Source: Thuidium tamariscinum | Taxonomy: Eukaryota; Streptophyta; Bryopsida; Hypnales; Thuidiaceae | Length of the DNA: 64,000 bases | Assembly: GCA_947034885.2 (NCBI GenBank) | Contig: OX344758.2 | Span: 16,147,067-16,211,066 of the forward strand | Direction: 5' to 3' | Shown: one piece after another, positions 15,676 through 63,011 of the stretch | Position numbering within the stretch: the stretch's first letter is position 1 | Layout of the letters: each line of letters starts with the position of its first letter | Program-made: the position numbers and the translations under genes | Notes under the pieces: generated by a model | What the model was told of the DNA's origin: nothing | The model's input: the letters and a program-made list of their open reading frames with translations, nothing else | Databases searched by the model: none

Positions 15676-15683
15676 CAGGGTTG

Positions 15684-25200: not shown

Positions 25201-25208
25201 CCAACGAC

Positions 25209-31948: not shown

Positions 31949-31955
31949 CTATATA
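31949..31955 (-). promoter_or_regulatory. TATA box of the hAT transposase gene
   Basis: TATATAG on the minus strand about 215 bp upstream of the ATG, immediately next to the GACGG array at 31975-32395. Confidence 0.6.
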
Positions 31956-31974
31956 CTGTGAAGGCCTAGCAGCA

Positions 31975-32395: not shown

Positions 32396-32461
32396 CGCGT
32401 CCTAACGCGTCATGACATCCCGACGGGAAAAGCCCACGTCACGTCAGGATAGACAACCCTG

Positions 32462-40977: not shown

Positions 40978-41778
40978 TTCGTCAACGACGCGAACAGAAG
41001 CCATCGCCACTGGTCACAACCTATCAGTGCCCGTGCTTCCCTAGTCTTGACCAAGGGATGCGGTCGGTGGATGGTCGTCAACTGGCACACCTCGTGCCTT
41101 CCAGAATCGATGTAGACTTCTTTCGCTTGTCCATGCTCCGAAGATCGCTAAACCACGTGCGAGGCAACTCCACGTGAGACATTCGCCATCTGCAAGGTAC
41201 CTCGACCTCCGACAGGCTAGGTGGTTGCCAAGAAAATGGAACCCACATCGCCGTCCGACGCTCCACCCACATGAATAATGGCAGTCCACTCTAGGAATGG
41301 AAGGTGCCGCGTGAAAGCGAGCGTGGATCCGATGGGCTGACAACCACTTAGCCTGCCAGAGGCCGAGATACCATGTACCTTCATCGTGTTCGGCTCCTGT
41401 AACGTTGACGATGCTGCATGCTCGGCTGAAGACAAGACCCGACAGTCTCCGCGTTGGTGGGCACGGTTCAGAACGCCCGTTCTAAACCGAACGGAGCGCG
41501 CGGGCGAAGTTCCCCCTCAAAATCCCACGTTCTCTTTCGTCGAGCATTCGTCGCCGTCCCTGCGGACCTTCTTTCGGGGGTTCCATTCGAGCGTCAACGT
41601 GCGCCATTTGCAAGATAATGGTGGACCCAAGATGTGGCAGCTGCCAACCACCCCCCAAATACATCCTTTGGTAGAGACTACAGGAGCACGCGCAAGGAGT
41701 TGTGACGACAGGCGATGGCTTCCTTCAATTCATGTCTTCGAGTGAATGTTCTAGACGTTCACGAATAGAATACTGCGT

Positions 41779-41930
41779 CGTTCACATCATCGATCGTCCC
41801 TGAATATTCCCGTACGTCACTGCCTCCGTACGCGAAGAGAGCGAGATGTAGGAGTCACTACGACCCATTCTCTTCATGTACGGAGGCACCATCGTCACGG
41901 AAAATTCAGGGACGATCAATGACGTGAACG
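41779..41930. repeat. inverted repeat (hairpin) 2, relative of hairpin 1
   Basis: The left arm GTTCACATCATCGATCGTCCCTG is matched by CAGGGACGATCAATGACGTGAAC on the right; TGCCTCCGTAC pairs with GTACGGAGGCA. Its outer arms (41600-42110) repeat the hairpin 1 arms, about 930 bp away. Confidence 0.75.
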
Positions 41931-42131
41931 ACATTTATGGTCGACGACAACGCAACATGTTGTCCGTGAACGCCCGAAAGAATCATTGGAATGCATCAAT
42001 TGAAGAAAGCCATGGCCTAGCGTCAAAACTACCGATCCCCGCACGCGCTTCCGTAGTTTGGACCGAAGGATGCCATCGAAAGATGATCGGCAACTTCCAC
42101 ATTTCGTGCCCTCCATGAACGTTGCAAAATT

Positions 42132-42523
42132 GTTTTGCTTGGTGCATTGGAGCCAACCGTGCCTCCGTGTACCCATGCACACGATTCCAAGGAAGCTCAA
42201 GTGGTAGGAATGAAGTGCAAGTCATCGGGCGAGCAGGTGGAGCTCTGTTCCCTGGAACCATGTGCACGGGCACACCGAGACATGATTGGGATGCGCCTGT
42301 CGTGTTCGATAGTTGTCTCGTTGACGATGCCGCATTTTCCTGGCCGTTCCATCTTCCTTGTTTTGCTTGGTGCATTGGAGCCAACCGTGCCTCCGTGTAC
42401 CCATGCACACGATTCCAAGGAAGCTCAAGTGGTAGGAACGGAGTACAAGTCACCGGGCGAGCAGGTGGAGCTCTGTTCCCTGGAACCATGTGCACGGGCA
42501 CACCGAGACATGATTGGGATCGG
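42132..42523. repeat. tandem duplication, period ~229 bp
   Basis: TTTTGCTTGGTGCATTGGAG at 42132 and 42361 starts two copies that agree at nearly all positions for ~160 bp. Each copy is itself partly palindromic (CATGCACACGATTCCAAGG against CCTGGAACCATGTGCACGG). Confidence 0.85.
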
Positions 42524-43889
42524 ACGTCTTGACAACGTAGGCCATGCATTCTCTTATCCTGAAAGGTGGAGAGTGCGATAAGAAGTGAGAGAGTGAAGGA
42601 CAGGGATCAAATCGTGCTACATAGAAAGAGAAAGAAACAACGGTGGTCGGAAAAGGGACATGGCCCATGGCATAGTGGGTGTGGATTCATTCCTCAAGTG
42701 CAACTCACGAAGGTGTTCCTTGGGAACCCTAACTCCCTCCGCCATTCGTGGGAGTGTTCGGAGCCCATCTCTGAATTTGGCATGACCGGATTGACCGCCC
42801 TACACCCGAATGGCCGTGACATGGAGCAATCCACTCCCATATGTGTGAAGGGTGCATTGGGGCTCGGCTCGCACGATGATAGTTAGCCCCGACCGACAGG
42901 GAACGCGCAAGCTTTGACAAGTCGTTTCGTATCCGAAACCACACTATCACGTCCATAGGAGCCCCTCCATATGAAAGCGATTGTGGAGCGTCGGACACGA
43001 ATGACGTGCTCCCTATCGATCGGCGTCAACAAGGATTGCACGAGTGGAGTCCAAACACACCCTTCATACGCAGGGTAGTAGATAGCTCCGGGTTCAGGAT
43101 CGAGGTAGATGGTATAGTCCTCTGGGCGAACGCCTCCTTGGTGGCCTACAAAAGGACATCATGCAACATCCAGGAGGTCGCGAATGATGCGTGCTGCGTC
43201 CTCCAATGAGGTGCGGAACGGTGCCTAGAAACTGTTTGCCGACGCTCAGTCCGCGGTGAAGTCATGAGAGTGACTACCCGAGTGCGTGCAAGCGTGCGTG
43301 GGCGCATCTAATTCAGCCTACACACTACATTTAAAGTTCCATCCGTCAATTGACATCGACATCCGCGACGTCATGGAATGGTCCGCCATGTCATGGGATG
43401 GGGACACCCAGCCCGCCGCTCGAGTTGAAGCCGACGGTTTAGAACGCGTGCCCTGAACCTCTTCCAAGCTGCTACCAACATCAGAAGGTGCTCCTCGGTC
43501 TTAACCGGCAATCCACGCACCTGCGGACGAGAAGCTCACACTCAGAAGGTTTCCAACGGCTCGGAGGACATATTCAGACACGGTAGACAACGACCACGAA
43601 GGTGGAGGGACGCACGGAGTCCCGGACTTGGACCGCAAAGCGTGAAGGCGACGAAGGAATGCATCTGGTCTTGCAAAGGACGAAAAAGGCACGCACGAAA
43701 AAATGGATGGTTCAGGGAGCACAGATAGGACATTCAATCGATGTCGAGGGAGATGTTCAATGGAATGCTCGCCCCTCGTCGTTCGGAGAGGGCTCCCAAC
43801 GCATGTGAGGTGTCGTTGAAGCTCACTAACTTGCTCGGTCCTCGCGTGACCCCTTCGTCGATGCACATGGGGACCAATCACGCCCTCCC

Positions 43890-44410
43890 GTGCTTGTTGT
43901 GCAACGCTCCCAGGAAGCGAGCAGAACAGGAACGATGTGCGGCAATCGCGAGTTTCAAAACGTCTCCGTTCCTCAAATTGGCCATGGTCATCCATGTCGA
44001 GGACGCTCGCGGCGCTAGCCATCATCATCTTCATACTACGGTGGAGCCCGACAGTGAGAATGGGCGACGCCGCCGTGGGCACACATCTTCCGGCATCTAC
44101 AGAGAAGTGTGGGCCACGAGGCCGACGTCTGCGGGCGCATCACCGTGGACCGATATGCCCTTTTCGTCGCTGACACAACTCCGTGAATGCCGAAAGCTAT
44201 GTGCCGATGAGTGCGTCCCTAGTTGTCAATGCCAGGCACCAGCACAGTCTGAAGATGATGATGGCTCTCGTTGCGGACGTGGAAGAGAAAGAGATCGCAG
44301 GCCTTGCCAATGTTCCCCCGAATCGTGCGCGCGGACGCGGGGGCTGCTAACACCGTCGCCGCCCGTTCTGGACCTACTTCCTGGGAGTTTTGAACAACAA
44401 GCACAGGAAG
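43890..44410. repeat. inverted repeat 3, centre near 44130
   Basis: GTGCTTGTTGTGCAACGCTC at ~43892 is largely complementary to the CTGGGAGTTTTGAACAACAAGCAC block at ~44382. Weaker pairing extends outward to about 43700 and 44500. Confidence 0.55.
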
Positions 44411-44579
44411 ACGTGCTTGGAAATCGGGATATCATCTCGTGCAGGGCGAGAATGCTGCGCGGTGCTCCCGGTAACGCCGGGGGTGCTCCCGTTCTTGCCA
44501 AAGGAATCACATGGAAGAGGACAGCCCGTCCAAATGTCGGCCTGGTCCACCAAGTGCAACCTTGCGTCTCCCCGTTTGA

Positions 44580-45310
44580 ATGTCGCCATATTCAAGGTAA
44601 CTCCACCTCTGGCAAGGAAGATGGTGGCCAACGGCATGGACTGCACTTCTCCATCCAAACGAGACTTCCAGAGCAACGGAGATCCAATGCACTGCCTACC
44701 AACTCCATTGCCAAAGGCGGAATTGCCGCTGAAGTTTTATTGTCCAGTCTCCACGAATCCGCCTAATCGATGCAAATCGGCAGCAAGTGGTCTTCGTGTG
44801 GTCGACGAACAATCCAAGCCCGCCATTCAGAACGCGCGGTCCCACCTGCAGAGCCACATGCTACGACCATCATGGGATGGACATGCATGGTTTAGAATGC
44901 GCGGCCTGAAGAGTCCCGAAGACCAGCGGAGTAGAGGCTGCGCAGACTGAGAGGTCGTCAGAAGTGCATCTCTGCTCACCGCGAGCGAAGGCGGACAAGA
45001 AATACGACATTCGATACATACATAGATAGAAGCCATCGTACAAAGACGAACCTACAACACACATCGTCCGACAGCGTCATTGGAATGCCCACTTGATCCA
45101 CCGACTAGATCTTCGCGTCTCCTCGTCCGAAAGTCGCCCAATTCAAGGTAACTCCACCTCTGACGAGGGAGGTGGTCGCCAACAGCATGGAATGCACCTC
45201 TCCATCCAAACTTTGCTTTCAGAGGAACGTAGATCCGGCCAATGCATGGACAACCATCTCCCTCACCAGAGGCGGAGTTGCCGTTGAAGTTTCCTTGTTC
45301 TGAGTGTCTC
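44580..45310. repeat. direct repeat, two copies ~550 bp apart
   Basis: TTCAAGGTAACTCCACCTCTG occurs near 44591 and 45143, followed in both by GGTGGYCGCCAAC-like and CTCCATCCAAAC blocks and ending in GGCGGARTTGCCG. Similarity is perhaps 75-80% by eye. Confidence 0.6.
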
Positions 45311-45709
45311 CACGAAACCGCCTTGTCGACACAGATTGGCAGCAAGCTGTCTTTATGTATTCGACGCATAGCACTCCAGGGAAGCGAACGCAATGGCTAT
45401 CACATTATCAGGGGCAACATTAGGCACCTTGGCAATGATTTTCGTACGACCGTGGACGTTTGCCTCCACGTTGTTGGGGCACGGAGGAGGTGCAAACTTC
45501 AACGGCAGTGGAGCATTGTTCACGTCCGAGAGGCTCATGACGTCGATCAAGCGTCTTCCTCTTCGCATCGACAGTGGATCCCGGGAGCGATAATAGGGTA
45601 TGTGACGGTGGGCAGACGTCTATCGACATTCGTGGATCTGTGCGTGCAACAAGGACGACGGTCGCGCGGACGCGAACTTGATCGAGTGCAGCATGCAGCG
45701 ATTGGGCAG

Positions 45710-46071
45710 GATCCCATGCAAGTCTTCCATCACCGCCCCCCACTTTGTTGTAGGAGACGTGGAGCTGTCCCATTCAATGGGTATGAAGCTCGACGTCTGG
45801 AATCCAAGCGCGGGACGCTCCTCGGCCATCCCCGACGAGGCGAGCAAGTTCACATGCGTCGGTCCACGTTCGACACCGCACAATCACATCCGAAGGTAAT
45901 TGTGCGGCACCGGACATAGACGACGCACTTGAACTTGCCCGGCCACTCGGTGCCGAGCTGGCGAGTGGTCCGCCTAAGAAGTCGAGACTCCGAGTTTCAT
46001 ACCCATAGAACAAGGCTGCCCCGCGTTGCAAAATGGAAGGCCATGACGGGAAGACTTGCATAGGGTCCCTC
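45710..46071. repeat. inverted repeat 4, arms ~180 bp, centre near 45896
   Basis: The left arm GATCCCATGCAAGTCTTCC...CCGCACAATCACATCCGAAGG is mirrored by TAATTGTGCGG...GGAAGACTTGCATAGGGTCC. Pairing is strong near the centre and outer edge. Confidence 0.7.
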
Positions 46072-46805
46072 GTTGCGGAGGATGACGGACACGGGCGAGG
46101 CCAACGTGGCGAGGCTAACGTGTTTTGGGTTGCCCGCCGCACTCCGTGAGAGCCGCCAGATACGTGCCGATGCCAACGTCTCCTATCGTCCCTACGGGGT
46201 TCCACCAGGAGGCCATCATGACGCCGACTGTCCCTACGAATACCTTCAAGTTTGCAAGCCGACAAACGCCGACCAGATATGCAAATCACGGATTGGCTTC
46301 CTCGGAGTGCTCTGCAACGACCAAAGTAAGACGTGTCTGGGATATGATCTCTACAATGAAGACTCGTCGGGTGCGATGCTCATTTCATGTTATTGTCGCT
46401 TGAGCGCGTGACTGGAATTGAGGAGGCGAGAAAATGCACTCGTAAGATCTAACGTCCACCAATGTACGATCCACGAATCAGGCAAAGAGGTCTACGAGAG
46501 GGCAAGGAACATCTTCCATACAACTACGCAACATGCAACAGCCAAGATGGGTGTTGCACTCCATTGCGTTTTTTATACCATGGATAATGTTAGAACAACG
46601 GGTCCCTAGTCAAATGTAGATGAAAATGTATGTCAAATTAGTGATGCAAACGAAATGCAAAGCAAATCACAATATTGTCATCATAAGTGCATCCACGTTG
46701 GAATGGTGACGAGGTTGCATGTCCTACTGAACGCTAAGGGGGAAACACTACTAGGTACACAAGACAAGGATATAAAGAGTCCACGAGGGGATCCCAGTTT
46801 CTTCG

Positions 46806-47309
46806 TTGATGCACGGTTTGCGGTGGAGTCATGATTACGACAGCCCGAGACCATGGGAGTGTAAAGGGGTTGAGGCTAGTCATCCTATGTTGAATTTGAT
46901 GCGAGAAAGTTTTTTGCCGACATCGTCCGTTGCGATGTCCGTGGACGAGGATACGGCGCGACAGTGGCGACTCCCTCCGCGAAGGAGCCCACGGTTCAGA
47001 ACGCGCGGCCTGAACCGCACGCCGCCCGCGAGCCTACACGGGAGGACATCCACAGATACGGTGCGAGTCGCTGCACCTGCGAGAGTCAACGATCAGCTGG
47101 CGCTCAGTACCCCTTCCGAGACGACCCACATATTCCAACGTGCAATAACAGAACATCCCAGTGGACTCGGAGACAAGAGACTGAAGCCATCCAGCAATCC
47201 ACCATCCCATGCAGAAGATCCAAAAGGAAGGACGAGCGGACGAGGTGCAGAGATGGAGAACAAACTCGAGGAAATCTTCCAATGGAGGGGGAATTTCTTC
47301 AGAGCTTGA
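46806..47309 (+). CDS. possible exon of an uncharacterised protein
   Basis: 167 codons with a charged, partly helical C-terminal end (AEMENKLEEIFQ) and one palindrome copy at 46995 inside. An overlapping frame (46964-47761) is equally long and ends with an acidic, plausible C-terminus, so the true coding frame or splice pattern is uncertain. No domain recognised. Confidence 0.3.
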   Translation: MMHGLRWSHDYDSPRPWECKGVEASHPMLNLMRESFLPTSSVAMSVDEDTARQWRLPPRRSPRFRTRGLNRTPPASLHGRTSTDTVRVAAPARVNDQLALSTPSETTHIFQRAITEHPSGLGDKRLKPSSNPPSHAEDPKGRTSGRGAEMENKLEEIFQWRGNFFRA

Positions 47310-47788
47310 ACAAAGTCCTAGACCGCCTGAGTGGAGGACTCTTGACCGCAACGACGACGTCATCGAGAAGCGTACCTGGGTATTTTTTTTACCGTAGGGC
47401 CGATTCTTGCGTACCATGCGCGCGGCAGGAGCGGTGCACGTCCGCGTGGTCGTCCTTCAAGGAGGAACCGACATCGCGTCGTCCCCGGTGTCCTGAGGGG
47501 CCGAGCAGCCTTCGGAGGAGCCCACCCCTTTCGCCATTCGCGTCCGGCGCCGCTTGGAGCGAGCGGCCATCGCCACGCCCTCCGGCACGCCCCGGTCACC
47601 CCCGACGTATATGCGTCGTCGGATCTGCACAAGCATCACGTTTTCCTCAAGGGATGAGTGACCACTCTCCTCTTAAAGAAAGGACCGCTCCCGTCCGCAT
47701 TGTAACTTCCGACGAAGTCCAAATAGTCCAAGACGAGATCACTGTCCCTCGACCGAGCTAACTTGACTACTCTCATTCCCAGTTCCGT

Positions 47789-48568
47789 CTAGGTCCAGGG
47801 TCTGTCGAGCCGTCCGAAGTAAGGGGGGGTTTCCGACAGGTATTGGGACACGCTCCGCCCGGATTCCAGGAGGCCTGCCAGGTACGGGCGCAGAGAGCAG
47901 TTGAGGAAACTGTCCGTCGCGCTGCCAATTAAGGTCAGAGGGAATATGGCGTTGTGAATGGGGTTGAGGATGGTGCTCTCCGGGCTGGACTCGATGAGCA
48001 GGGTGTTGGTCGCGTTGGCCCTGAAAACGCTCGCGCGGAACCTGGGGTCGCCCCAGACGACCTTGTGCAACACCTTCAACCGCAGCAGCCCCCCGGGATG
48101 GTCGGGAAAGGCTAGCCAGGTGTTCTTCTCAACCTTCTTGTTGACAAACGTGTCCGCCGGGTGCGCCGGGCAACCGAGGAAGGGAAACTCCGGGAACGGC
48201 GGGCACTTGCAGGTCCACCACGCGCGCCTCTCCACCAAGGTGGTGCAGTCCTCCATGGTGAGGATGGACATCGTATTGACGTCCTTGTCCCGAAAGAGGA
48301 ACTTCACCACGGGCCTTGCGACGTCCCCCGGCAGCCGGGTCCAGATGCCCACGCGGAACCTCTTGGACAATCCGCTGAGGAAGTGGCGCACCTCGGGTCG
48401 ACAGTACAGGGCGTACTCCCCGAAGACGTGACGGCGCGCGGGATCGAAATCCGCCTCGGAAGGCTGCGCGACCGGGGTGACGGGGGCACGCGGAGCGGCC
48501 GGAGCCGGACCGACGTGCTCGACGTGGCACAAGACCCCCTCCACTTCCAAGAGGACGAAATAACTCAT
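47789..48568 (-). CDS. FCP1/NIF-like HAD phosphatase domain protein (259 aa), catalytic Asp replaced
   Basis: The start MSYFVLLEVEGVLCH is the place where NIF/FCP1-type phosphatases carry DLDGTL; here the nucleophile Asp reads as Glu (LEVEGVL). RPEVRHFLSGL...VGIWTRLPGDVARPVV matches the next family block (RP...FL...IWT). 'TLLIESSPE' could correspond to the later D(D/N)SP motif. The domain fills the whole protein. FCP1-like enzymes dephosphorylate Ser/Thr, classically on RNA polymerase II; with the Asp lost this copy may be an inactive relative. It is convergent with the frames at 46.8-47.8 kb and has palindromes ~200-280 bp upstream. The frame is open and undamaged. Confidence 0.6.
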   Translation of the reverse strand: MSYFVLLEVEGVLCHVEHVGPAPAAPRAPVTPVAQPSEADFDPARRHVFGEYALYCRPEVRHFLSGLSKRFRVGIWTRLPGDVARPVVKFLFRDKDVNTMSILTMEDCTTLVERRAWWTCKCPPFPEFPFLGCPAHPADTFVNKKVEKNTWLAFPDHPGGLLRLKVLHKVVWGDPRFRASVFRANATNTLLIESSPESTILNPIHNAIFPLTLIGSATDSFLNCSLRPYLAGLLESGRSVSQYLSETPPYFGRLDRPWT

Positions 48569-48880
48569 GCGTGAGAGGCGAGGGGAAGGGATCGCCGGGG
48601 GTACCGACGGTGGTGCCTGCGCATCCGAATGCCCCTCCCCTTGAGTAGGGATTTCTAAAACGGACGAGGTGGAAGAATAAAACGAAGACGCAATTGCAGA
48701 CGACGGAGACGGCCCACCATCACATCGAAGGCACGAAGACGCGACACATTGCCAAAGGCGTGCAGTCTAGAGCGCGCGTTCTAAACACAACACCCGTCGT
48801 GCGATGCAAGCCGCAGACGCATGCAGTTTAGAACGCGCGGCCTGAAACATCCCCCGTCTACGTGGGCATCGTGTCAACAC

Positions 48881-49456
48881 TTACAAACTACCCGGGGAGG
48901 AGTATGGGAGGACAAGAACGGAGTGCGGGTGGGAGTGGGGAGAGGCATTGTGGCTCACCTTCGTCGGCGCGTCCGCCGACGTCGTGTGGATTGGAGGGGA
49001 CTCGTGAGCATTAATCGACGGAGCGAGCTGCGGTTCCGCTGTAGGGACGACCCGTGCCGTTTCTTTACTTTCTACTTCAGGAGGCACCGCTTCGAAGGTG
49101 GCAGGAGGGATTGTCATCCAGGGCCTGTCGACTTCTTCCTCAAACGGGGATGTGGGCGAGCCATCCAATGCGTGCGAAGGTGCGGTCATCCAAGGTCCCC
49201 CGGCGTCGACCTCCACCGGAGGGGGCGGAAGGACATCCGCAGCGACGGGGGTCCGCAAAGCGTTGTCCACTTCCACGTCACAGGGGCTGGGTGGAGCGAC
49301 GTCCACGGACAAGGAGAGCTTTTGGGGGGCTTGGTAGTGTGGGGCTTCGTCGGGGCCGGTCAGGTGGCTGGTTGGGATTCTTGTCGGATCGAGCGTGCCA
49401 AGGGAGTGCAACGGGTGTGGATGCGGGGGCTTCACGAGGAGGTTGGTGTCCATCAC
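48881..49456 (-). CDS. possible Pro/Glu-rich protein or exon (191 aa)
   Basis: Disordered sequence with a repeated VD..(G/R)PWMT motif (AGGPWMTAP and DRPWMTIP). It lies upstream of the phosphatase-like gene on the same strand and could be a 5' exon of it. No known domain. Confidence 0.3.
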   Translation of the reverse strand: MMDTNLLVKPPHPHPLHSLGTLDPTRIPTSHLTGPDEAPHYQAPQKLSLSVDVAPPSPCDVEVDNALRTPVAADVLPPPPVEVDAGGPWMTAPSHALDGSPTSPFEEEVDRPWMTIPPATFEAVPPEVESKETARVVPTAEPQLAPSINAHESPPIHTTSADAPTKVSHNASPHSHPHSVLVLPYSSPGSL

Positions 49457-49859
49457 AGGAGCGTTTGGACCCTGGACTGAAAAAGCATACGAGCGTAACT
49501 ACATTGTCCAAAAAGAACTGTGAGGACGCGACGCAAGGGAAGTGACGACACCATCGACAATACAGAGCACACACACACCACGAAAGCCATGCGCGTCACC
49601 AAAGCACGCACGATACAAAACCCAAAAAATCACGTCTCATATATTATAAGAATGCACCATATTTACAAGATGCGAGGTGCACAACAAATCAATCACAACG
49701 TCCGCACATGCCCGGGCCCAATTAACATGTCTCAAAATGGATGCCAGTGACTAAATGCCTAGAAATCCTATGCATAAAAGAAAGAGCCGCTACGACTATG
49801 GCTCCCGCGGCTCTCTAGGACTCGCCGGGACGACCTTCGACCGGCTCGGCGTAATGCCC
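49457..49859. other. spacer without recognisable gene
   Basis: About 400 bp between convincing frames, with a short CA run near 49570. Nothing recognised. Confidence 0.4.
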
Positions 49860-49882
49860 TCACATAGCGTCCGGGCTAACTG

Positions 49883-50592
49883 ACAAAAAGGGAGCTATGT
49901 GGGGGGTTACCCACCGCGGGAGTCTGATCCTGCCACGTCGGAGATCCCACCGTGACGTGCTCCTCCAGCAGCACCTGCGACTGCTCTTGACCGTGTGGGG
50001 CCTGCACGACGGGAGGTTATTGCTCAGTGAAGTTAGGAAAGGACTCCTCAACACTCCCCCAGCGATCATCAAGGATGAAGGGGACCTCGTCCTCTTGGTG
50101 CGCACGAGTCAGGAGTTCAGGAACATGCACACTAGGAAACTGACTGAGCGCCAGATCATCCACATCGGGATTGGGATCGAGATCAGTACTCACCGGAGGC
50201 GTCGTCGGGATTCTCATCGCCATCTGCCGGAGCCCCGAGGCAGCGGAGGCCATCGCCGATTCGGAGTTGGTCGTGGACACCCCGGACACGTTTTGGAGCT
50301 CACTCACACGGTTGGGACTCGGAGCGAGAGCCACGGTGATTGTCACGGGCACTACCCCGAGGTTCCTTGCGTGCAGTTCGGACTTCATGTACTCCACCTC
50401 CGCGGCTTGCTTCTCCAATCTGGCAATCAGATCGGTTGCCTGGGCCGCCTTCATCTCCGCATCCTTCCGATCCTGCTCCTCCTTCTCCTTCATACGGGCC
50501 TCCCACTTCGCCTCCCGCTCCGCGTTCTTGGCCCTCTCTACCTCCTCTCTCCTCTCCCTCTCCTTCTCCTTTTCCACCCACTCCTTCTCCCA
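49883..50592 (-). pseudogene. ParB-like gene, C-terminal coiled coil
   Basis: Same frame after the TAG: EKEKERERREEVERAKNAER, a highly charged single helix, then a Thr/Pro-rich part with VPVTITVALAPSPNRV and an acidic DDLALSQF. A TAA at 50017-50019 follows FTEQ; a Gln-rich continuation (VVQAPHGQEQSQVLLEEHV) runs to TAG near 49883. Confidence 0.45.
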
Positions 50593-50595
50593 CTA

Positions 50596-52260
50596 CTCCC
50601 TCTCCTTGTCGAATTTAGCTTGCTGGCTCTTCTCGTACTTTTTGCGAGCGGCTTCCATTTGCCTCTCGATCACCTCCATCAAGGCCTCCCGCACTTCGGG
50701 CTTCACGTCGGGCTTCTCGTCGACCTCGGAAGCCCCCAAGGACGAGCGCACCCCCCCGCTCGCAGCGGGCTGCGGCCGTGCTCCGACATCCGGCTTCGAG
50801 TCGGAGCTCTCGCCGGCGTTCACGTCCGCACCCCCCGAGGACGACGCTCCCCGCGACGCAGCAGCCGCCGCCTTCCTGGCCTTCTCCGCCGCTTCCTCTC
50901 TCGTCTTCATCTTCGCCTCCAGTTCGTCGTCGTCGAGGTCATCGAGGTCGATGACGGTCTTGGACTCTTGGTCCATCCGAAACTTCGTGCTCATCTCCCG
51001 GTGGTGATCGATGTAGGCCTACTCTGCCGCGGTCGGAGTCGGCAGTTCCGAGGCGAGAGTGTCGATTCCGACCTGCACCATCACGTGCACTTTGAGTCTC
51101 TCCACCGCCGTCGATCCGAGATGCTTGGCCTTCATGTTCGCCACCATTCCGCAATACCTGTCGACCTTCATCTGGAATGTCAAATCGTTCGCCTCCGGGG
51201 CAAAATCAAGCAGCCCGTCCCTCACAGTGGCCAGTTTGAGCAGCTGGCTCTTGGAGAATGCCTTCTTCATGAAGTCGAGGTCCAACTGCATATCCTGGAT
51301 TTTAATTCTGGCCCGAGCAGTCTTCGAGGCAACCGTCGGGTCAGGTTCGACGTGGCTGAGCAGGGGAGGGCTCCGCGACGGAGGACGAGGGGGGGGCATC
51401 GCCTCGGAGTCCGCTTTAGAGCGCGCGGCCTGAACCCCGTCCATCACCCGGAGTGGGAGGTGAGACTGCGGTTCAGGGCGCGCGGTTTGAACCACAGGCG
51501 ACACGGAAGTCGACAGGGCCGGCTCGCTCCCGGATGCACGACACGGGGACCGAATCCCCAGGACCTGGGGCGAGAGGACGGCCGTCGGAGTCGCGAAGAG
51601 GATCCTCGCGGTCGCATCTGCCGGAGGGGATGCGCCTGCAATCGGAGACCCTGACACCGGATCAGACCGCGCGCCCCGAACCGAAAGCACAAGGGACGGA
51701 GGAGAGTCCTCTATGTGCAAATCAGACCGCGCGGCCTGATTCTGCCTTCTCGGTAGTGACGGCGGTGCGTGCATCTCGGAGAAGAGGTCAGCGGCGTCCG
51801 GGGATTTGGACGTCCGTCCTTTGGGCTCGCCAAGGCGCACGGGAGAATGCTCCTCATCTTCGGATTCAGACTTGTCGGAGCGTTCATCCGAGTTCCCCGA
51901 CTCCTCTCTGTCGTCGTCCACCGCGGGGTTGGACGCGCCCACATCGGCCGGCTCCTCACCCTCCAATGTAGCGTCCCTCTCTTCGTCATCCTCGTCATTG
52001 TCCTCCTCCTCGTCCTCTTCCTCGCTGTCGGACTCGGACTCCGCCCGAACCGCCGCCGTCAATCCCTCGGCCGTCACAGGCACACTCTCTCCTCTACGGA
52101 GGTGGTCGGGAGCCATGCCGTCGTAGTTGTACCTGAGGGCGGGTGGACCGTGGACCAGTACGTCCGGCCACATCTCGGCTCCCCGTCGGTTGTGTACCGA
52201 ATGCCGATGCAAGCTGTTCGCCGTGTTGGAGATGAACGCCACGGAGCTCCGGCACAACAT
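50596..52260 (-). pseudogene. ParB-like gene, acidic and Ser/Pro-rich exons
   Basis: Starts after TTTCCAG in phase 0. A long acidic stretch (EEEDEEEDNDEDDEE) and Ser/Pro/Arg-rich linkers carry four palindrome copies (51415, 51472, 51661, 51721) in frame. A helical block (KKAFSKSQLLKLATVRDGLLDF) ends at TAG 51019-51021, after which the frame continues with an Ala/Lys-rich helix (EEAAEKARKAAAAA) to TAG 50593-50595. Confidence 0.45.
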
Positions 52261-52346
52261 CTGGAAACCACAAGTGCAAATCAGTCCGTGTTCACATTTC
52301 GATCAACGGAAGAGGAAATCATCAATCTGCAGAGATCGAAACTCAC

Positions 52347-53732
52347 CGCGCAGGCCGAGACTGCCTTCGCTCCTGCGAAGACGAGCATGACGGTCCCTTG
52401 GTCCCTGCAGAACTTGTCGATGAAGCGCAAGTAGACCTCGTATCGCAGCTCCTTCATCGACTGGACTTGCAGGAAATCGTGACGGCACGTCTCCCGTTGC
52501 CTATACATGGGGACCTTCGTCTCCAAGATCGCGTCCTCCTCGGCCGACAGTGGTGGAACCACTCCGTTCCTATCCACGAGATGGGAGTTGTAGAAGGAAA
52601 TGTCGGATCGCTATACGCATTCCACAATCACGATGTCCTTCAAGGCATAGGTGGGCTCCCCCTTCGCACATCTATACTCAACACTGCGGCGGAGACGGTG
52701 ACGAGGAAAGAATGTCTTCAATATGTGATCCACCGCGGGAGCCCTCTCCGCGCCGTAAATGATCATCCAAGTGTGCACGCGTTTGGACATGTAATCCTCG
52801 GACACCTTCTTCACTTGCTCCAGGATGATGTTGTAGCCGTAGGTGACCTCCGTTTTGTCGATCTTCGGAAACAGGCGCAAGTCCATGATTCCCACCTCGT
52901 AGTACTGGAGGAGCACGGCACCCTTCTTCACGCTGAACCACCCCTCAGGGAGCTTCCTGGACAGCTGCAGGTGGAAGATTGACTTCGGATGGAGCCACGC
53001 GCAAACTGAGGCGGACGCGCACCTACTCACGACATGGAATCGCCTCGCGTTGGCTGCCACGCGCTCGTATAGCACGACGAGCACCGGGTTAGGAGCGTTA
53101 TCCTTGCTGACTCCCGATTTGCACTCCTGCTTCAGGTACTCCTCTCCCACACACTCCATGACCGCCATGTGAAAGCCATGTATGCACAGGGCCGCCTTCA
53201 GTTCCTTCCATCGGGTGGGATCGAGTTCGCTGGACTCGTTGAAGACTCCCTTCGCCGCGGGCACGTTCTGCCCAGCCACTTGTGCCAAGATGTCGACGAC
53301 GAGCTTCGTCTTGTGCTTCTTCCGCGTGGACCACATGGCGATGGCCACGGCCGAGCACCAGAGCATTGGCCTCTTCATGTAGATCTTGGGAGGGACTTGC
53401 ATCATCTTGCTCGCAGCCTCCCCCACGGCCAAGTCATCCAACCCTAGTAGGGTCCGCATCTGGTTCTTGTTGAAGGGCGGCAGCTTCGTCGCTTTGGAAT
53501 TGCCCCCCTCGGTATCCAACTCGTTGTACATGCAGCCGTGGTCGATGTTGTACAAGGTGCCCGACTCGTGCTTTTCGAAGAGCTCCTTCCAAAGGGCCCA
53601 AGTCTCATTGGAGGCCATGATGACCCTACGCTCCCCCAATTTGTCGAAGTCCACAATTGTCGTCTTCGCTCCGCTAGAGGTTTGCGAAGTCCCGGTCGAC
53701 TCGAAGCTCTCCTCGCACTTGGCCTTGAACTC
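52347..53732 (-). pseudogene. ParB-like gene, central exon
   Basis: Begins after TTTCGCAG with EFKAKCEESFES and runs in one frame to a GTGAGT donor at 52346, crossing one TAG (52611-52613). Contains a helical region (LGLDDLAVGEAASKMMQ), WCSAVAIAMWSTRKKHKTK, a basic KTFFPRHRLRRS and the methyltransferase-like VMLVFAGAKAVSACA. A second, small GTGAGT near 53030 might mark another intron. No named family. Confidence 0.5.
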
Positions 53733-54153
53733 CTGCGAAACGACAGAGACACATCAGAAACCATGTTCAGAGCGCGCACCCTGATCCATGTCCGCTCAAA
53801 AAAACAGCACACGAGATCGCAGCACACCCTCATCTCTCTCCATGGAGGACCAGTCGCCTCCAACAAACCGTGTCCCGGATTCAAGAGGCAAGGCTACAAG
53901 GAAACCCACATCAGAACGCGCATTCTGAAGTGTCTCGGGCACTGAACCTACGACTGCAGGAATCGAACAAGTCCTTGACATCACAATTAAGATGCACGTC
54001 GGAGAATCCAGACCGCACGGTCGGATTCGACCCCGACTAGTAGCGATGACCTGGCGGAGATCAGCAAAGGAAATCCGAGGCCCGGACTTCGTCTGCTATA
54101 ATAGGGTGGGGCAGATCAGACCGCGCGGTCTGAATTGGAAGGTACGATCATAC

Positions 54154-54239
54154 CTCGTAGGAATGGAAATCTTCGCTCTGACTCGTCTGCCTCGTGTTCT
54201 TCCTGAACTGCATCGGCCGGCCGGCGCTTTCCCAGATCT
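54154..54239 (-). pseudogene. ParB-like gene, exon remnant beyond element B
   Basis: 28 codons from the target duplication to a GTATGA donor, in the same frame as the sequence on the other side of element B. This shows that the insertion hit an exon. Confidence 0.6.
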
Positions 54240-54560
54240 CCCTGTGTGGCAACCTAGAATTCACCTAAGCAGGTTCTTAAGCAAAATACGGGAAGAGGGA
54301 TCTATTCAATCCCCATTTTTTTATTTTTTTTTCTTAGTTTCTACACATAATTGGGACCAAGACCGGAAACCGGAAGACCCTAGACCGTAAACCAGAAACT
54401 ACGTTAAGGGACAGCGTATGAAATCCCGGATTCCGCCCACCTAGCGACCGAGACCGGATAGGTAATGAGTGGCTACCGAGTCTAGAGATCGTCGGGATCT
54501 CTCCCACGTGACCAGACTGGTTTAAACCTAACGGTCAGTAATTAATGCCGGGGGAAAAAG

Positions 54561-54566
54561 TATAAG
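54561..54566 (+). promoter_or_regulatory. TATA-like box of element B
   Basis: TATAAG about 235 bp upstream of the ORF at 54797, at the same place in element A and comparable to TATATAA in element C. Confidence 0.5.
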
Positions 54567-54796
54567 ACCAGGGAAGCAGGGCCAGGTCCTGCCACTTTCT
54601 TGCACGCAGTTCGAGAAAGGGTTTCCGGCCAGAGATAGAGTATTCGGTCTACAGACAGAGAGAAGGGATAGATAAACTGTCAATCCGGTCTGGTACATAG
54701 TTGAGCGAATAGCACTACGCTAGCTGACTGGTTCTTGAGCGCGGGAGGTTTAGTTAAGTTGGACCGCGCCTAGATTGTGTAGGCGTCAAGTGAGAG

Positions 54797-56893
54797 ATGG
54801 CAGAAGAGGTGCAGGAAGGAAGGATTCTAGCCTTCCGGAATGTGAATCCGGTCGTGCCAACTGACGCACAAGACAAGAGGGAGCTGGAGGAAGACCTCAG
54901 GCAGATGGGCTGCGAGGGGTTCATAGCTCACCCCTGGAACCTGAAGGATGAGGCGATGGTGGAGGAGCTACTGGCCGGCCAGACCAACGAGTGGAAAGGG
55001 ACGGTCCGGGCGCTGCCAAAGGAGTGGAGTGCAGCGATGTGGCGCAAGGTGTACGCCTTCGAGCAAGGAGGAGATGCGACGGGCACCCGGACGGACAAAT
55101 TCCACCAAGGGAAGTTCCGCAGGCCCACCAACCCGAAGGACGGCTTTACAGTAGCAGAGTGTGTGTCTGCTAGACACAAGAGGCTACTGCGGTTCATGAT
55201 GGCGATCTTGAACCCGGATAGACCTAGTAGGATTACGGTCACCGTGGCCAACACTGTCTTTGGTGCACTGTCGGGAGACAGGAAGATAGATTGGGGGTTA
55301 GTTATGAGGGACCGGATGGACCGAATGGTGAAAGGAATTGGGAAATCTAAACCCTCTCCCATTTCACCATTCCTGTTTCATCTGTATCATTCGTTAGACC
55401 TCTTGAGAGAGAAGGAGATGGAAGCTTACGAGGTAGGGGCTGCATTGATAGAGTATGAGATTGCAGACCCGGAAGCGGAAAATGACCAAGATGAGGAGGA
55501 CTCCGAGGATGAGAGTCAGGAGGGGCATCAAGGAGGCACACAAGAAGTAGAGGAGGTTCTAGAGGTAGGAAGAGAGGATCCACCTCTAGAAACCCCTGTA
55601 GTAGCCGGGGAAGCCCAAAGGTTAGATCCGGTCTGGGAACAGGATCCCTTGCTAAGGATCCTGCGAGACCTGGAAGATTTCAGAAAGCACCACCTAGAGG
55701 AGAGAGGGTTATTACGGGCCATAAGCCAAGCCTTAGGCTCTATTCCCCCCTCCAAGATCATGGAGGTGTTGGGAGAATTGATTCAGGAGGCTCATGATAG
55801 TCGGGACAGAGAGGAGGTACTCCGGCTAACAAATCAGGTCTCAGCCCTGAGGAGGGAGCTCCATCACACTCAGGAGGAGCTGGATGAAGAGAGACGCCTC
55901 ACCACGCAGGCCCGGAACACACTCGGAGAAATCCGAGAGTTCATCACGCATCCGGGTGAAGTCGTCAACAAAGCCATGCTTTTCGACAGGAAGGTCTTGG
56001 AAGCAGGCAAGATGGTGGGTCCTCAGATGCTTACAGCTCTGGTGGCCTACAACAAGAAAATGGAGGCAGCGCTGGAGAAGTGGCGGTCAGTAGTCACGGA
56101 GGTCCAAGCTAGTTCTGCTCCAGTCTCAGGACCGGAAGAGCCAAAGATGGAGAAGGAACAACCGAAGGATCAGCCACCACTAGCAGCTGTCGAGGTAGAA
56201 GCCGGCATATATGAACCGGCGAAGGAAGAGGGAACCAGGACCGACGCAGTGGAGGAGGAATCTGTCCCACCGGCCCGGATTGAAGAGCCCAGGGTTTCTC
56301 AACCCGAGAAGACCAAGGAGCCGGAACCCGAGCCGATTGTGTTGAGGGAGATAATCCGGGGAACTACACCACCAAGGGAGAAGACCAAGTTCATCACCTT
56401 GTTGGATGATTCTCCAAGCAAGTCATCACCCACGGTCATCACACAACCAAAGACCGGAGGGGAAGCGAAGGCAACGGTGCAGGTCCGCTCTATACTGAAG
56501 ACCGGATCTGGATCCGGGTCACCAAGCCAGGGACCAGCCCGGACTGCCGAGAGAGTGGGGGAGCAGACCCCGCAAAGCAAGATAGTGCACCACCCGCCCA
56601 TCACCGGATTCAAGAAGAAGACCGCGGAGACATCCAAGGTGAAGCGGAAGGCCCGGGATGAAGAGGAAGAGGAGTCAGATGAGGAAGATGAGGACTCGGA
56701 GGAAGAGACCGACTCCGGTGATGAGTCGGAACAGTACTCAGATGCGGACCAGGCATTGGCAGAGACCACGAAGACCAGGGCCAGGGCGCGGGGTAAGACC
56801 AAACCGAAACCCAAGCCCATCAAGATGTACCGGTCTCCGAAGAAGCAGCCAGCCCGGAAAGGTGCGTCGCCTCTCAAGAAGGCGAGGAAATAG
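54797..56893 (+). CDS. gag-like protein of element B (698 aa)
   Basis: Intact and apparently identical in sequence to the protein of element A; the one base change I noticed in the coding part (C/T near 56852) is silent. The same domain order applies: conserved N-terminal domain, acidic patch, coiled coil, disordered Pro/Glu/Lys part, acidic run, and basic tail ending in PLKKARK. This is the only long ORF of the element on the sense strand, so mobilising functions must come from elsewhere or be of an unrecognised kind. Confidence 0.75.
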   Translation: MAEEVQEGRILAFRNVNPVVPTDAQDKRELEEDLRQMGCEGFIAHPWNLKDEAMVEELLAGQTNEWKGTVRALPKEWSAAMWRKVYAFEQGGDATGTRTDKFHQGKFRRPTNPKDGFTVAECVSARHKRLLRFMMAILNPDRPSRITVTVANTVFGALSGDRKIDWGLVMRDRMDRMVKGIGKSKPSPISPFLFHLYHSLDLLREKEMEAYEVGAALIEYEIADPEAENDQDEEDSEDESQEGHQGGTQEVEEVLEVGREDPPLETPVVAGEAQRLDPVWEQDPLLRILRDLEDFRKHHLEERGLLRAISQALGSIPPSKIMEVLGELIQEAHDSRDREEVLRLTNQVSALRRELHHTQEELDEERRLTTQARNTLGEIREFITHPGEVVNKAMLFDRKVLEAGKMVGPQMLTALVAYNKKMEAALEKWRSVVTEVQASSAPVSGPEEPKMEKEQPKDQPPLAAVEVEAGIYEPAKEEGTRTDAVEEESVPPARIEEPRVSQPEKTKEPEPEPIVLREIIRGTTPPREKTKFITLLDDSPSKSSPTVITQPKTGGEAKATVQVRSILKTGSGSGSPSQGPARTAERVGEQTPQSKIVHHPPITGFKKKTAETSKVKRKARDEEEEESDEEDEDSEEETDSGDESEQYSDADQALAETTKTRARARGKTKPKPKPIKMYRSPKKQPARKGASPLKKARK

Positions 56894-58153
56894 GGGGCAT
56901 TAATTACAGGTAGATAGGAAGGCGGCTAAACCAAGTTATATTTAGGTTAGGAACTTTTGAACTTAGACCGGATCCAGATATGTAGGATCTGTGATCCTAT
57001 TTTGTTGGTATTTTTGTAGTTTTGTGGAAGTCAACCTACCCAAGTTGTAGAGGAATGTGAGGTGGCATTCTTGGCGGCTGGTGTTGATTCCATTTGCACT
57101 TTTAGATTTTCTTGCAGTTTAGTATTTAAACCCGGTTCGTAATTGAATCCGGGCGCGCATTATGTTATCTTACTTTCACAAGTTTTTGTGTTGCAAATAC
57201 AAGTCAGAACCTTTTCTGATTCACTCTGAAGTGGACTGTGTGCATGGGACCTTGTCAAAGTCTTATGGTGATGGTTAGGATTGCAACCTTGTGTGGATAA
57301 GTGTGTGCCTGGATGGTCAGTTTATCCGGTCTCTGGACTTAAAGTGAATTTGGTTTTGATAGGGAATTTGTGCAGGATCCCACAGTGCTTTCTGAAACAG
57401 GTCTAGGGAGTATTTGATAGAGATAGACACTTGTAGAGTCTGGGTTTGAGATCGGGAGCGTCCGGCCAAATGCCAACTGAATGGTGATCCGGTCTCTGTA
57501 GAAGAAAGAAGGACTAAGTGAGGAAATTCAGCTCTCTTGTATAAGCTACCGCCCTTATTCTACCAGGGATTAGACTAACTGGTTCTTCCGTCGTTGTAGT
57601 CTTTGTTAGGATTAGGCAGGAGTGCTTGCGTGACCTGCTGGGTCGGATTAGTCCCGATCCAGTTGTGAGGTATTCCGGTCTGTTTGTAGTAGTAGTTTCT
57701 TTTTACTCATAAGTGGAACTTCTGACACTTTAAAACTTGAAGGGTAGGAGTAAGCTTCCTTCCTAAACGCCCAAACAAGCAGATCCCTCTTGTTATCGAG
57801 GTTAAACTTACACTTGGTTACTATACTAGGGATTGGACCAGCTACTAGTATCCGGTCTTTAGTCCCATATCTAGTGAGCGTAAGCATCAAGGTGGTGAAC
57901 ATACAGGTATAGATAGATAGACTTAGTTTGGAAGGATAAAGGATTGATCTGGTAATCAGGTCCAAGGAAATCTTAGGAACGTTGGAGACCAAGACCGGAT
58001 CAGTCTTTTGCTTGGGTTTTGTTGTGATAACCACTAACGTATTCCGGTCTTTCGTCAACTTTCGACCAAATCTCTTGGGAACGATACACGAGTCACTTTA
58101 AGGCTAATTTAGTGCATTCTAAAGCCTTAGAGAAGGAATTGTGCTTTCCTGTG

Positions 58154-58981
58154 CTACGACACCCTGCAATGCTTGATCGTGGCGGGCACCGAAGACAGAA
58201 ATGGAGCGAGCTCGTTCTCCGAGTTGCACATGGAGGACAGGGTGTGCAGGTGGTGCGACTTGTCCGACCAGACGATCTCGCATGTCCACTTCTGCAGCCA
58301 GGCTTTGACGGACTCGTCGTCGACCGTCGTCTCCCCCGACAAGATCTCTGTCGCAGCCTTCCACGTGTGCTGGCCATTGATGATTTTGAACTTCCCGGCC
58401 GTCGTGCACTCCTTCCAGTCCTTCGGTCGCGTGGCCGTGTCAGGCATCACGGTCAGGATCTGCTTCGTGTAGTTCACGAGCACCATCCGCTTCAGGACGT
58501 AGAGGACGCCCTCCGTCTCCAAGGGCCTCACAATAATCCCGGAACTCGATTCCACGTTCGTCATTTTGTTCACGTCCAGCTCGAAGTACTTGCCGCGCCC
58601 GAAAATGTACATGTAGGACGACAGTTCCTTGAACGCCTTGTTCGCGTTGACCTGCGCCTTCAGCCGACCCTTGGTGTTCACATCCGCGCTTCTCTTGGAG
58701 TTCGATTTGAAGTCGATCTCCACGGTTATCTTGTCCGAGATGGAGGACGGGTCTAATGGGATCGTATCTGGGTTTTCCGTCCACTCATCGTTCACCTTCT
58801 TCACGGCCACTGCGTGCGCCTCGACCTCGCTCATCTCCATGGGCTCCGTGCACGCTTCCTGCGTGGAAGAACTCGGAACCGCCGTAGCACCGTGGCTAGA
58901 GGAGCTTGGCGTAGGGTTCGCCTCATGGGACGTGGAGCATTGCGCGACTTCAGCTGCTCGAATGGACGGGCTCAAGGGTCC
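58154..58981 (-). pseudogene. ParB-like gene, part with INGQHTW motif
   Basis: Continues the frame with a Ser-rich linker and then a folded domain (ITVEIDFKS, YMYIFGRGKYFELDV, IIVRPLETEGVLYVLKRM, KIINGQHTWKAATEIL). GQH followed by two Ala is characteristic of ParB/sulfiredoxin-fold proteins, which bind or cleave DNA or use nucleotides. It ends artificially a few codons into element B; the reading frame resumes at 54239 as EIWESAGRPMQF. Confidence 0.5.
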
Positions 58982-59872
58982 CTACACGGCCTCGTCAGGG
59001 ACGGGATCTCGCCTCTGCTTTCGCCACCGCTCCGCTTCCGCGGCGTCATCCTCGCTCTGCACCGCGGCAGGCTCGGACTGAACCTTCCGCTTCTTCGCCA
59101 ACTTCTTCGGGCGCGCGGTCGGGGCGGTACGGGGGGGTGGAGCGGCCGTTGCGGTCGGCGCCGGAGTGGCGATGATCCGCTCAGCTGCGGCACGGGGAGG
59201 GGGAGTGGCCGCTGCGGTCGGCGGTGCTGGGGTGCTCCGAGTTGGTTCGGGTGCGGCAGTTCTCGTGGCGGGCCGCGCGGTGGATCGTGGCGCGGATCGA
59301 GGGGCGGCTCGCGAGGTGGCACCCGCCACGGCGGACTGGGGAGCGGCGCGAATTCGAGTTTTGACCGTCGGCGTCGACCCGCTCCCCTTCTTGGCCTTCT
59401 TGCTGTTGCCGCCGCCCTTGTCTTCCATTTCTCCCCTCTCGGCCTGTGAATCAAACCCCGAGTTCAGTCTTGACGCATGAAGGGTGTTCGCGTCCGACAT
59501 GAAGGTCTGGATGACCTTCACGGTCTCCACAAACCTACCGGACTGTGCATCACACCTCATCTGGACGTCGCGCATCAGGTACTGGTAGGCGGTCGGGACG
59601 TTCTCTAAATGCTCTACCATCCTACGCGTGCAGAACATCATCTCGTCCTCGACACGGATGACGATGACCCCGACTTCGTTGTTAATGGAATTGGCCACGT
59701 CCAGAAGGATGCCCTCACGCATCACGTGAATGTTGATGAGAATCACATTGTTAAGCGTCTTCCAGCGTGTCCCGTCTGAAGACGTGAACCCTATTTCGAG
59801 GCCGAAGGCAGGCGACCCCATCTCGTGACTCAACTTCACAGTCCACAGTCCTCTCCTCGAGGATATCCGCAT
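58982..59872 (-). pseudogene. ParB-like gene, N-terminal part (296 codons)
   Basis: MRISSRRGLWTVKL start; a structured first ~120 residues (NNVILINIHVMREG, IVIRVEDEMMF) of unknown family. A long Ala/Pro/Thr/Arg linker with repeated TAAPPPR-like words and a nuclear-localisation-like PKKLAKKRKV follow. Ends at TAG 58982-58984, after which the same frame continues. Confidence 0.5.
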
Positions 59873-60006
59873 CGGGAATTAGTCTTCCAGATGCGGTTTC
59901 CAGTTCTCGTGGATCCTGGTTGGCGGGATTTCTTCTAGGTAGCCCCGCAAAGTGGGGTTGTTTTCGACAAAGGCCCCCATCTGACTGTCCACAAGAAGTC
60001 GAACGA
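59873..60006. other. upstream region of the ParB-like gene
   Basis: Short spacer between the start codon at 59872 and the first palindrome of the dense cluster. No clear TATA box seen on the minus strand. Confidence 0.3.
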
Positions 60007-61046
60007 ATTAGACCGCGCGGTCTGAACTACCAGAAGCATGCATTTCACAGTAGGCGATGGAGAATGGCACGAGATATTCAGACCGCGCGGACTAGTTCGT
60101 CACATCGTCCGTAGGGACGATCACGATTCGCTCTCTTTAGGGTTGAAGCCGCTCTAGTCGATTCTGCTGTTTACCATTTGTGCCCCATCCCATTAATTCG
60201 TGCTTACGTCTGGAAGGACGGTCAAGTGGCCTTCCCTACGAACTTACACACTCGAGGGCGACTGGTGCTCTTCTCTATCGTACCCTCTTTCATGTGGTTT
60301 AGACCGCGCGGTCTAAACCTCGAAATCCATCCAAGTCGCGAGGTCCTACTGTGTTGGGGGCTCCTTATTTGATTATCAGTTTTCTTCCCACGACGAGGTC
60401 AGAATTGGAGAAGCAGGTTTCATGGTTTTTGGTTCAGACCACACGGTCTGAACTGCATGGTCTTCGCGCATTTCAATGATGGATTACTCTCATGGTCCTA
60501 GGCATGGCACTGACCCGGAGCTGCAGACCGCGTGGTATGAAGCCTGGGGTCTTCTTATTTTAGTCGAGTCAAGGTTTGTGGCTGGGATTATCGAGTGTCC
60601 ATTTTTTAATTTGACTAAATCTACCCTCGTCGTCTCTGCATTTGGTTCAGAACGCGCGTTCTGATCCTAATGTTCATTTCGGAAATTCTGGTCATTTTGG
60701 ATGAATCCTCTTAGCATTTGTAACGGAGGATTGGTTCAGAACGCGTAGTCTGAAGCTTAGGGGCTTAGCATTTCTGTGGAGTCACGGCTTCTATCTGCGG
60801 TCATGTTTCCTTTGATAATTTCGTTCTCGTGGGCATTGGTTTTATCCACATCTACTTTAGAACACGCGTTCTGATCCTCATATTCATTTGAAGGATTTCA
60901 GCATTTCAGGACCCACTCTGTATTTCTATAGGAAAATGGTTCAGAACGCGCGGTCTGAACTTCAGGATCACTTGCGGGACTCTAATCCGCCAATGAATCC
61001 GGATCTCTCAGCTAGCTGCGGAATGGTTTAGAACGCGCGCTCTAAT
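60007..61046. repeat. dense cluster of ten 20-bp palindromes
   Basis: Ten of the 25 palindrome sites lie here at spacings of about 70-220 bp, mostly 85-135 bp. The DNA between them shares no obvious sequence. The cluster lies upstream (5') of the long minus-strand gene, so it may be its control region or a subterminal region of an undelimited element. Confidence 0.85.
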
Positions 61047-62322: not shown

Positions 62323-62436
62323 AATGCTGGAATGTGGCCACTCAGTGTCGGGAAAGAAAAAGGCTGCTCGTGATCCCCCAATCTGGAAGACTCTTGTCGA
62401 AAATGGAGGATGTCTGGAAAATCGTCAATAACGGCT

Positions 62437-63009: not shown

Positions 63010-63011
63010 TA

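Follow-up and report, generated by a model that had tools for sequence, protein, structure and literature searches.

There are few plant elements for which it is understood in detail how a transposon recognizes itself as distinct from its host and escapes silencing. In CACTA/Spm elements, the element-encoded protein TnpA binds many short subterminal repeats in its own element, and in bacterial ParB-parS systems, palindromic sites lie near the ParB gene. For the VANDAL elements of Arabidopsis, the accessible text describes a short motif in the noncoding DNA of one family, which is multiplied in tandem and whose density matters for binding by VANC (PMC5735166); the accessible part of PMC10398659 is also a source for this model. 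For Sola1-1_Ec32 of Ectocarpus, a ParB-like/DNA-methyltransferase accessory protein is described, and the authors suggest, in the accessible part of their report, that it binds to its own transposon (PMC12477816). Here, we analyzed a 64,000-nucleotide stretch of the moss Thuidium tamariscinum (contig OX344758.2, positions 16,147,067 to 16,211,066; hereafter, the window), in which the 20-bp palindrome TTYAGAMCGCGCGKTCTRAA recurs. The segment that carries these palindromes belongs to a DNA transposon of approximately 52 kb that is present in multiple copies, ends in inverted repeats, and encodes a DUF7869 transposase and a ParB-like protein. The family provides a long symmetric motif and few candidate proteins, and it has related families that either carry or lack the motif; self-recognition can thus be tested directly. 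It would also supply a binding-site hypothesis for ParB-like accessory genes of algal transposons such as those in the accessible part of PMC12477816. In the open-licence literature, DUF7869 was not named, and no title or abstract on giant plant or bryophyte transposons was recognized as this element.

According to the accessible text on VANDAL and VANC, the two situations share a short motif enriched in the noncoding parts of one transposon family, including introns and regions upstream of genes, and tandem repeats of the motif that differ between copies; the type of motif differs between related VANDAL families (PMC5735166). Our family likewise shows a motif that is enriched in the family and multiplied in tandem in noncoding DNA, as detected with Tandem Repeats Finder (TRF) in two of five copies. 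The motifs themselves are unlike, because that of VANC21 is YAGTATTAY in one orientation in the accessible text (PMC5735166), whereas ours is a palindrome of 20–24 bp. Unlike the VANDAL motif, some of our sites lie within a reading frame. Furthermore, VANDALs are Mutator-like elements, whereas the transposase here is of the DUF7869 type and no VANC-like protein was recognized by Pfam. Sola1-1_Ec32 resembles our element in being a large eukaryotic DNA transposon whose ParB-like gene is encoded on the opposite strand to the transposase, but it is a Sola-1 element, and the accessible part of its description names no binding sites (PMC12477816); here, there are palindromes, a DUF7869 transposase, and no methyltransferase domain detected either in the ParB-like stretch or in g490, a conserved gene of the element. 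VANC acting on VANDAL is the nearest working model and Sola1-1_Ec32 the nearest anatomical precedent. We do not claim membership in either system, because the transposase family differs, the motif is unlike that of VANC21, and no methyltransferase was detected. The sites of CACTA/Spm are subterminal, and the ends of our element do not start with CACTA. In comparison with ParB-parS, ours is a eukaryotic chromosomal element with a different site sequence and weak homology.

The genome comprises 363 Mb in 19 contigs, and positions marked W are window coordinates continued past its right edge. The further DNA analyzed comprised four more palindrome clusters on contig C2 (E1–E4) and the right neighbor of the window. 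E1–E4 align with the window far past the palindrome segment, the copies align over the whole 52 kb, and transposon copies are present on many contigs. E2 spans approximately 52 kb between its ends, and the copy in the window extends from 14636 to W 94560 (= C10:16241626), with its right end approximately 30.6 kb past the window edge; it is longer than E2 because of nested insertions, including three copies of one 3.9-kb element. The left terminal inverted repeat occupies 14636–14664 (+ strand), and its right counterpart, beyond the window edge, ends at W 94560. The left end of E2 is GGGCAATTTCGTTAAAATGGCGATATTCC and its right end is the complement with one base changed; the left end of E2 and the right end of the window's copy form a 36-bp inverted match (97%). 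Both ends were found in two copies (the window's and E2); E1 and E3 showed only the right end, and no terminal end occurred in the fetched part of E4. The ends read GGGCAATTTC or GGTCAATTTC, with no CACTA or CACTG start, and no clear target-site duplication was found in the two copies with both ends. Both transposon ends (window 14636–14800; L028 400–560) also carry degenerate direct repeats of approximately 21 bp (TGGCACATGGAATA...), which are distinct from the palindromes and are possibly transposase sites.

An earlier note on this DNA, made from the sequence alone, had reported 25 copies of the palindrome at 41467–61046, a number too high for chance. Both statements were confirmed: 22 matches with ≤ 3 mismatches were found in the window, all within 41467–61046, against 0.01 expected from shuffled sequences, and of the 27 matches with ≤ 5 mismatches, 25 fell in this segment and two elsewhere. 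The statement that the motif is confined to one segment is true only inside the window, and the idea that it is specific to this segment was wrong, because the sites belong to the transposon family. Genome-wide, the exact 20-mer occurs 198 times per strand, with no occurrence of a reversed-pattern control, and a 14-bp core with two mismatches gave 3238 matches versus 1250 for the control. To the right of the window, its transposon copy contains nine more sites (≤ 4 mismatches), eight of which form a second cluster at W 74660–83102; the ninth, at W 66987 with four mismatches, may be a chance match. In a half-site logo of 150 sites pooled from five element copies, in which orthologous copies of one site were counted separately, information was high from TT through the CGC core, and some was present 1–2 bp outside (R–G). 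Because information reaches 1–2 bp past the 20-mer on either side, the palindromic unit is nearer 24 bp. Fragmentation of one larger dispersed repeat, which the earlier note had named as a finding that would refute its reading, applies insofar as the segment in its entirety is repeated at dispersed positions; no unit longer than approximately 24 bp, however, was found in common to the palindromes, around which there are only local tandem duplications (123 or 210 bp, in two copies). Compensatory change between the arms, another of its suggestions, was weak. Among 47 sites, three of which, close to the left end, probably match by chance, the site pattern left only pairs 1/20, 3/18, 6/15, and 7/14 free; pairs 1/20, 3/18, and 7/14 matched slightly more often than shuffled pairs (p ∼0.04 each), and pair 6/15 showed no excess. 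The halves vary largely independently, with A opposite G at pair 7/14 in 10 of the 47 sites and A opposite C at pair 6/15 in nine. Strong CpG decay at the sites was considered and rejected, as CpG positions differed by 3.5–8.2% and other positions by 3.9–6.7%.

The placement of the palindromes was counted in copy E2, which has 34 sites with ≤ 5 mismatches. Half of these (17 of 34) lie within approximately 1.1 kb upstream of three element genes, so that the earlier description of sites on any background was too loose. Eleven are situated ≤ ∼1.1 kb upstream of the ATG of the ParB-like gene, the nearest ending 26 bp before it; four are 50–399 bp upstream of the conserved g490 sequence, and two are 69–130 bp upstream of the opening of a frame similar to NLI-interacting-factor (NIF) phosphatases, the starts of g490 and the NIF-like frame being frame limits and not proved start codons. 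A further eight sites are 2.5–7.0 kb upstream of the first recognized transposase frame. Four are inside g745, an open reading frame (ORF) with a low ratio of nonsynonymous to synonymous substitution rates (dN/dS); because all four are in one reading frame in E2, a protein-level cause is possible for them. The palindromes closest to the ends are approximately 7.5 kb from either end. In the window, an array of ten palindromes occupies 60007–61046, the nearest again 26 bp upstream of the ParB-like ATG, and its tandem duplications differ between copies (TRF: 210 bp in E4 and 123 bp in E3, two of five copies). Four palindromes (53766, 53910, 54007, and 54115; 53766–54134) lie upstream of g490, in the interval that separates it from the ParB-like gene, four (51415, 51472, 51661, and 51721; 51415–51740) are within g745, and two (48766–48846) flank the NIF-like frame on its 5′ side. 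No recognized gene is situated directly downstream of the five others, which are dispersed (41467, 43438, 44826, 44891, and 46995; 41467–47014).

We analyzed the genome-wide association of the palindrome with transposase and ParB-like genes. Of 758 transposase candidates, 90 were scored (30 at ≥ 86% identity, 7 at 70–85%, and 53 at < 60%), as were 140 of 357 candidates for the ParB-like gene, so the proximity counts for the latter are lower bounds. The list of exact sites is complete for contigs C1–C3, and distances between transposases and sites were judged there, within 60 kb. Exact sites were found near five of five high-identity transposases and none of the 14 scored low-identity ones, and none of 14 further listed distant transposases on these contigs, compared by eye, was near an exact site; among the scored copies, clustered sites are limited to one transposase lineage. 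A transposase of 74% identity (L029) is accompanied by inexact sites only. A ParB-like gene occurred within 60 kb of at least 24 of the 30 close, 3 of the 7 intermediate, and 36 of the 53 distant transposases, versus 4% of random positions. Because the two genes are neighbors in all three identity classes, they form an old pair. These counts support the genome-wide link to a ParB-like gene raised in the earlier note, although the ParB assignment itself rests on weak profile matches. The palindrome marks one branch of this pair, including the surroundings of a ParB-like copy of 51% identity (C3:41870649) with exact sites at 41870521, 41872947, and 41881474. A second and apparently larger DUF7869 family is 48–51% identical to the E2 transposase (62 of 911 first-look P0051 candidates scored); many of its frames extend for approximately 950 codons without stops, and for the 36 of 53 scored members with a listed ParB-like gene within 60 kb, this gene is typically about 15 kb away.

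Sequence constraint was examined between copies and in the diverged element L029. Between copies, the palindromes of the array before the ParB-like gene showed differences at 6.0% of their positions, compared with 10.0% for the spacers, and 8 of 1039 shifted placements were equally conserved. The persistence of the palindrome in L029 is a stronger sign of constraint than this comparison. The transposase of L029 retains 69–76% DNA identity, and elsewhere just one 94-bp stretch aligns; 10 sites (≤ 4 mismatches) nevertheless occur in 10 kb, where 60 simulated sequences averaged 0.03. In five of the 10, the outermost pair has changed on both sides, from T..A to A..T. Base composition was compared along the element as well. 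With the palindromes masked, the ratio of observed to expected CpG was 1.01–1.12 in five palindrome-bearing stretches (E2 43.0–56.8 kb in window orientation; segment B), 0.43–0.82 in the site-free middle of E2, and 0.80, 0.96, and 0.85 in the stretches, likewise free of sites, that begin upstream of the transposase and extend to the right end. The ratio of transitions at CpG to those at other C/G positions was 1.1–1.8 in palindrome-bearing stretches, 1.6 on the left, 2.0–3.2 in the middle, and 1.8–2.3 on the right. This pattern would fit less methylation around the sites, and we regard it as suggestive.

Based on these results, we lean toward the reading that the palindromes are dispersed, promoter-concentrated sites for an element-encoded dimeric DNA-binding protein, with the ParB-like protein as the leading candidate, which would mark or protect the element's own genes. 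From the arrangement of sites and genes we infer protein binding, the identity of the binder, and a role in transcription or against silencing. A dimeric protein of the element, most likely the ParB-like one, would bind many dispersed palindromes; binding would mark the element's own genes and either keep them open to transcription or shield them from host silencing by DNA methylation, and the array before the ParB-like gene would be autoregulatory. A dimeric DNA-binding protein had already been proposed in the earlier note and is still the best reading, given the strongly constrained half-site and the two-sided change in L029. A bolder version, in which giant plant DUF7869 transposons encode a ParB-like protein that is loaded onto dozens of parS-like promoter palindromes and spreads to block silencing, as a eukaryotic form of ParB-parS self-recognition, strikes us as possible but doubtful.

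The ParB-like gene, in its main part (58163–59980, − strand), encodes the motif IINGQHTWKA and has two in-frame stops, at codons other than those of the two stops in E2; its 3′ part (54151–54324, − strand), identified by tblastn of P0004, has been cut off by an insertion whose edge it overlaps. Its dN/dS is 0.23–0.49; all pairwise dN/dS values reported here were calculated against E2 and, since they share this copy, are not independent. For a 275-aa stretch of the protein, 14 relatives were found, most with the IINGQHTWKA motif, and 7 of the 15 members matched phrog_723 (ParB-like partition protein) weakly (best E 0.0077). Pfam gave no ParB match for this stretch or the members (the first member had no match at all) and no DNA methyltransferase domain for the stretch. 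A structure model of the stretch was too poor to use (predicted local distance difference test, pLDDT, 40). We consider the ParB identity likely, though unproved.

Several observations weigh against the binding-site reading in its present form. Homology of the ParB-like protein to ParB is weak, and 3 of the 15 members match a Tet-like 2OG-oxygenase instead (Pfam, best E 0.027). Distant transposases are also accompanied by ParB-like genes but without exact palindromes on C1–C3, so that the protein's site would have changed there. In four of the five regions tested, the palindromes were not more conserved than their surroundings. Five of the 34 sites in E2 are downstream of the NIF-like frame with no recognized gene after them, and the dN/dS of this frame reaches 0.93 in one comparison. 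The CpG ratio is 0.92 in a left stretch of E2 with few sites and 0.96 in transposase exons without palindromes, and GC content and coding density, which differ between the stretches as well, confound the CpG pattern. Lastly, 26 of the 47 exact sites on C1–C3 are away from the listed close transposases; two of these are in E4 and three beside C3:41870649, and for the remaining 21 (12 on C1), no ParB-like gene was listed nearby. Some of these 21 may be explained by copies absent from the lists. Solitary exact palindromes include C1:5432863, 10243122, and 18648685.

A host transcription factor of, for example, the CAMTA type might bind the sites, with the element exploiting this binding for its expression. 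CAMTA-type factors recognize CGCG boxes, the core of the palindrome is CGCG-rich, and half of the E2 sites are upstream of genes; however, the constraint spans 20–24 bp, well beyond a 6-bp CGCG box, and the exact motif is rare, at 198 sites in 363 Mb, with the clusters seen in one transposon lineage, which makes this explanation unlikely. We assign a similarly low likelihood to recognition of these internal sites by the DUF7869 transposase, in the way that transposases bind subterminal arrays: clustered sites do track the transposase lineage, but the ends have degenerate repeats of their own, and the E2 palindromes keep the above-mentioned distance from both ends. Literal partition or clustering in the manner of ParB-parS, in which the protein, once loaded on the palindromes, would bring element copies together or spread along them, seems very unlikely; it could draw on the ParB-like profile matches, the palindromic sites, and the array beside the gene, yet a chromosomal element has no need of partition and the homology is weak.

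The palindromes might alternatively act as RNA hairpins in transcripts, for instance in processing or small RNA production, since a 20-nt palindrome is foldable and several sites are in 5′ regions. The two halves vary largely independently, however, and unpaired changes in the arms break a hairpin but not a dimer site; this explanation was rejected as extremely improbable. Hardly more credible is the spread of the palindromes as tiny mobile repeats in GC-rich DNA, for which the solitary exact copies (12 on C1) might speak. There was no clean presence/absence difference among the aligned element copies, and no E2 site had been lost from another copy by clean excision, so this candidate was rejected as well.

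The transposase gene lies near the right end, outside the window, in pieces at about W 86138–86707, 87574–89160, and 93085–93399. In E2, it matches PF25273/DUF7869 (E 5e-38), the only Pfam family above threshold in the transposase pieces scanned; no MULE (Mutator-like element) transposase was found. The three pieces have dN/dS values of 0.18–0.38. The protein has conserved Asp/His motifs, and the order of strands and helices in its structure model (pLDDT 71; predicted template modeling score, pTM, 0.74), together with these motifs, suggests by our reading an RNase H-like core. Its relatives include proteins of the mosses Ceratodon purpureus and Physcomitrium patens, and a search of solved structures gave no sequence relative of either this protein or g490.

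Within the window, the strand opposite the transposase carries the ParB-like gene, g490, g745, a proline-rich frame, and the NIF-like phosphatase frame. The NIF-like open frame (47789–48766, − strand) matches PF03031 (E 5.1e-10; dN/dS 0.40–0.93), and the proline-rich ORF (“PRO”) is at 48881–49498 (− strand; dN/dS 0.27–0.70). g745 (50017–52302, − strand; dN/dS 0.40–0.68) is a 745-codon open frame in E2 and has two in-frame stops in the window's copy. g490 (52341–53744, − strand; dN/dS 0.42–0.47), conserved and of unassigned function, is a 490-aa frame in E2 with six homologues at 41–50% identity. Three other long frames have dN/dS values of 0.63–0.81, 0.27–0.73, and 0.92–1.07. A methyltransferase identity for g490, proposed from a C-terminal motif seen by eye, was rejected, as a seven-member alignment gave no profile support in Pfam, PHROGs, PADLOC, or PDB sequences; weak matches were to ARD (two of seven members, E 0.0068) and a Myb/SANT-like domain (one of seven, E 0.028). 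Viral relatives of g490 or the ParB-like protein were also considered and rejected, since none were found in viral contigs, nor was an exact palindrome. Judging from identical contig sizes, the relatives found for three of the proteins (ParB-like, g490, and transposase) appear to share contigs of 338,987 bases (P0012, P0019, and P0024) and 53,922 bases (P0010 and P0020).

Approximately 16.8 kb in the left part of the element (15676–32461) is absent from E2, and this insertion, or group of insertions, contains a hAT transposase ORF (29492–31846, − strand; 784 aa) with DUF659 and hAT dimerization domains. The 3.9-kb element, which is unrelated and contains a 698-aa ORF, occurs at 35667–39583 (− strand), at 54245–58164 (+ strand), where it is inserted in the ParB-like gene, and at W 74832–78750 (L026 832–4750); each of these three copies is ∼99% identical to a copy in E1. 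Outside the transposon, window 7623–11235 is 97.5% identical to E4 24831–28433, directly beyond the E4 palindrome array, and is probably another dispersed repeat. At 62436–63011, there is a 576-bp unit with inverted ends TACTCCCTCCGTCCCAAAATGATC..., which we take to resemble a plant Stowaway miniature inverted-repeat transposable element.

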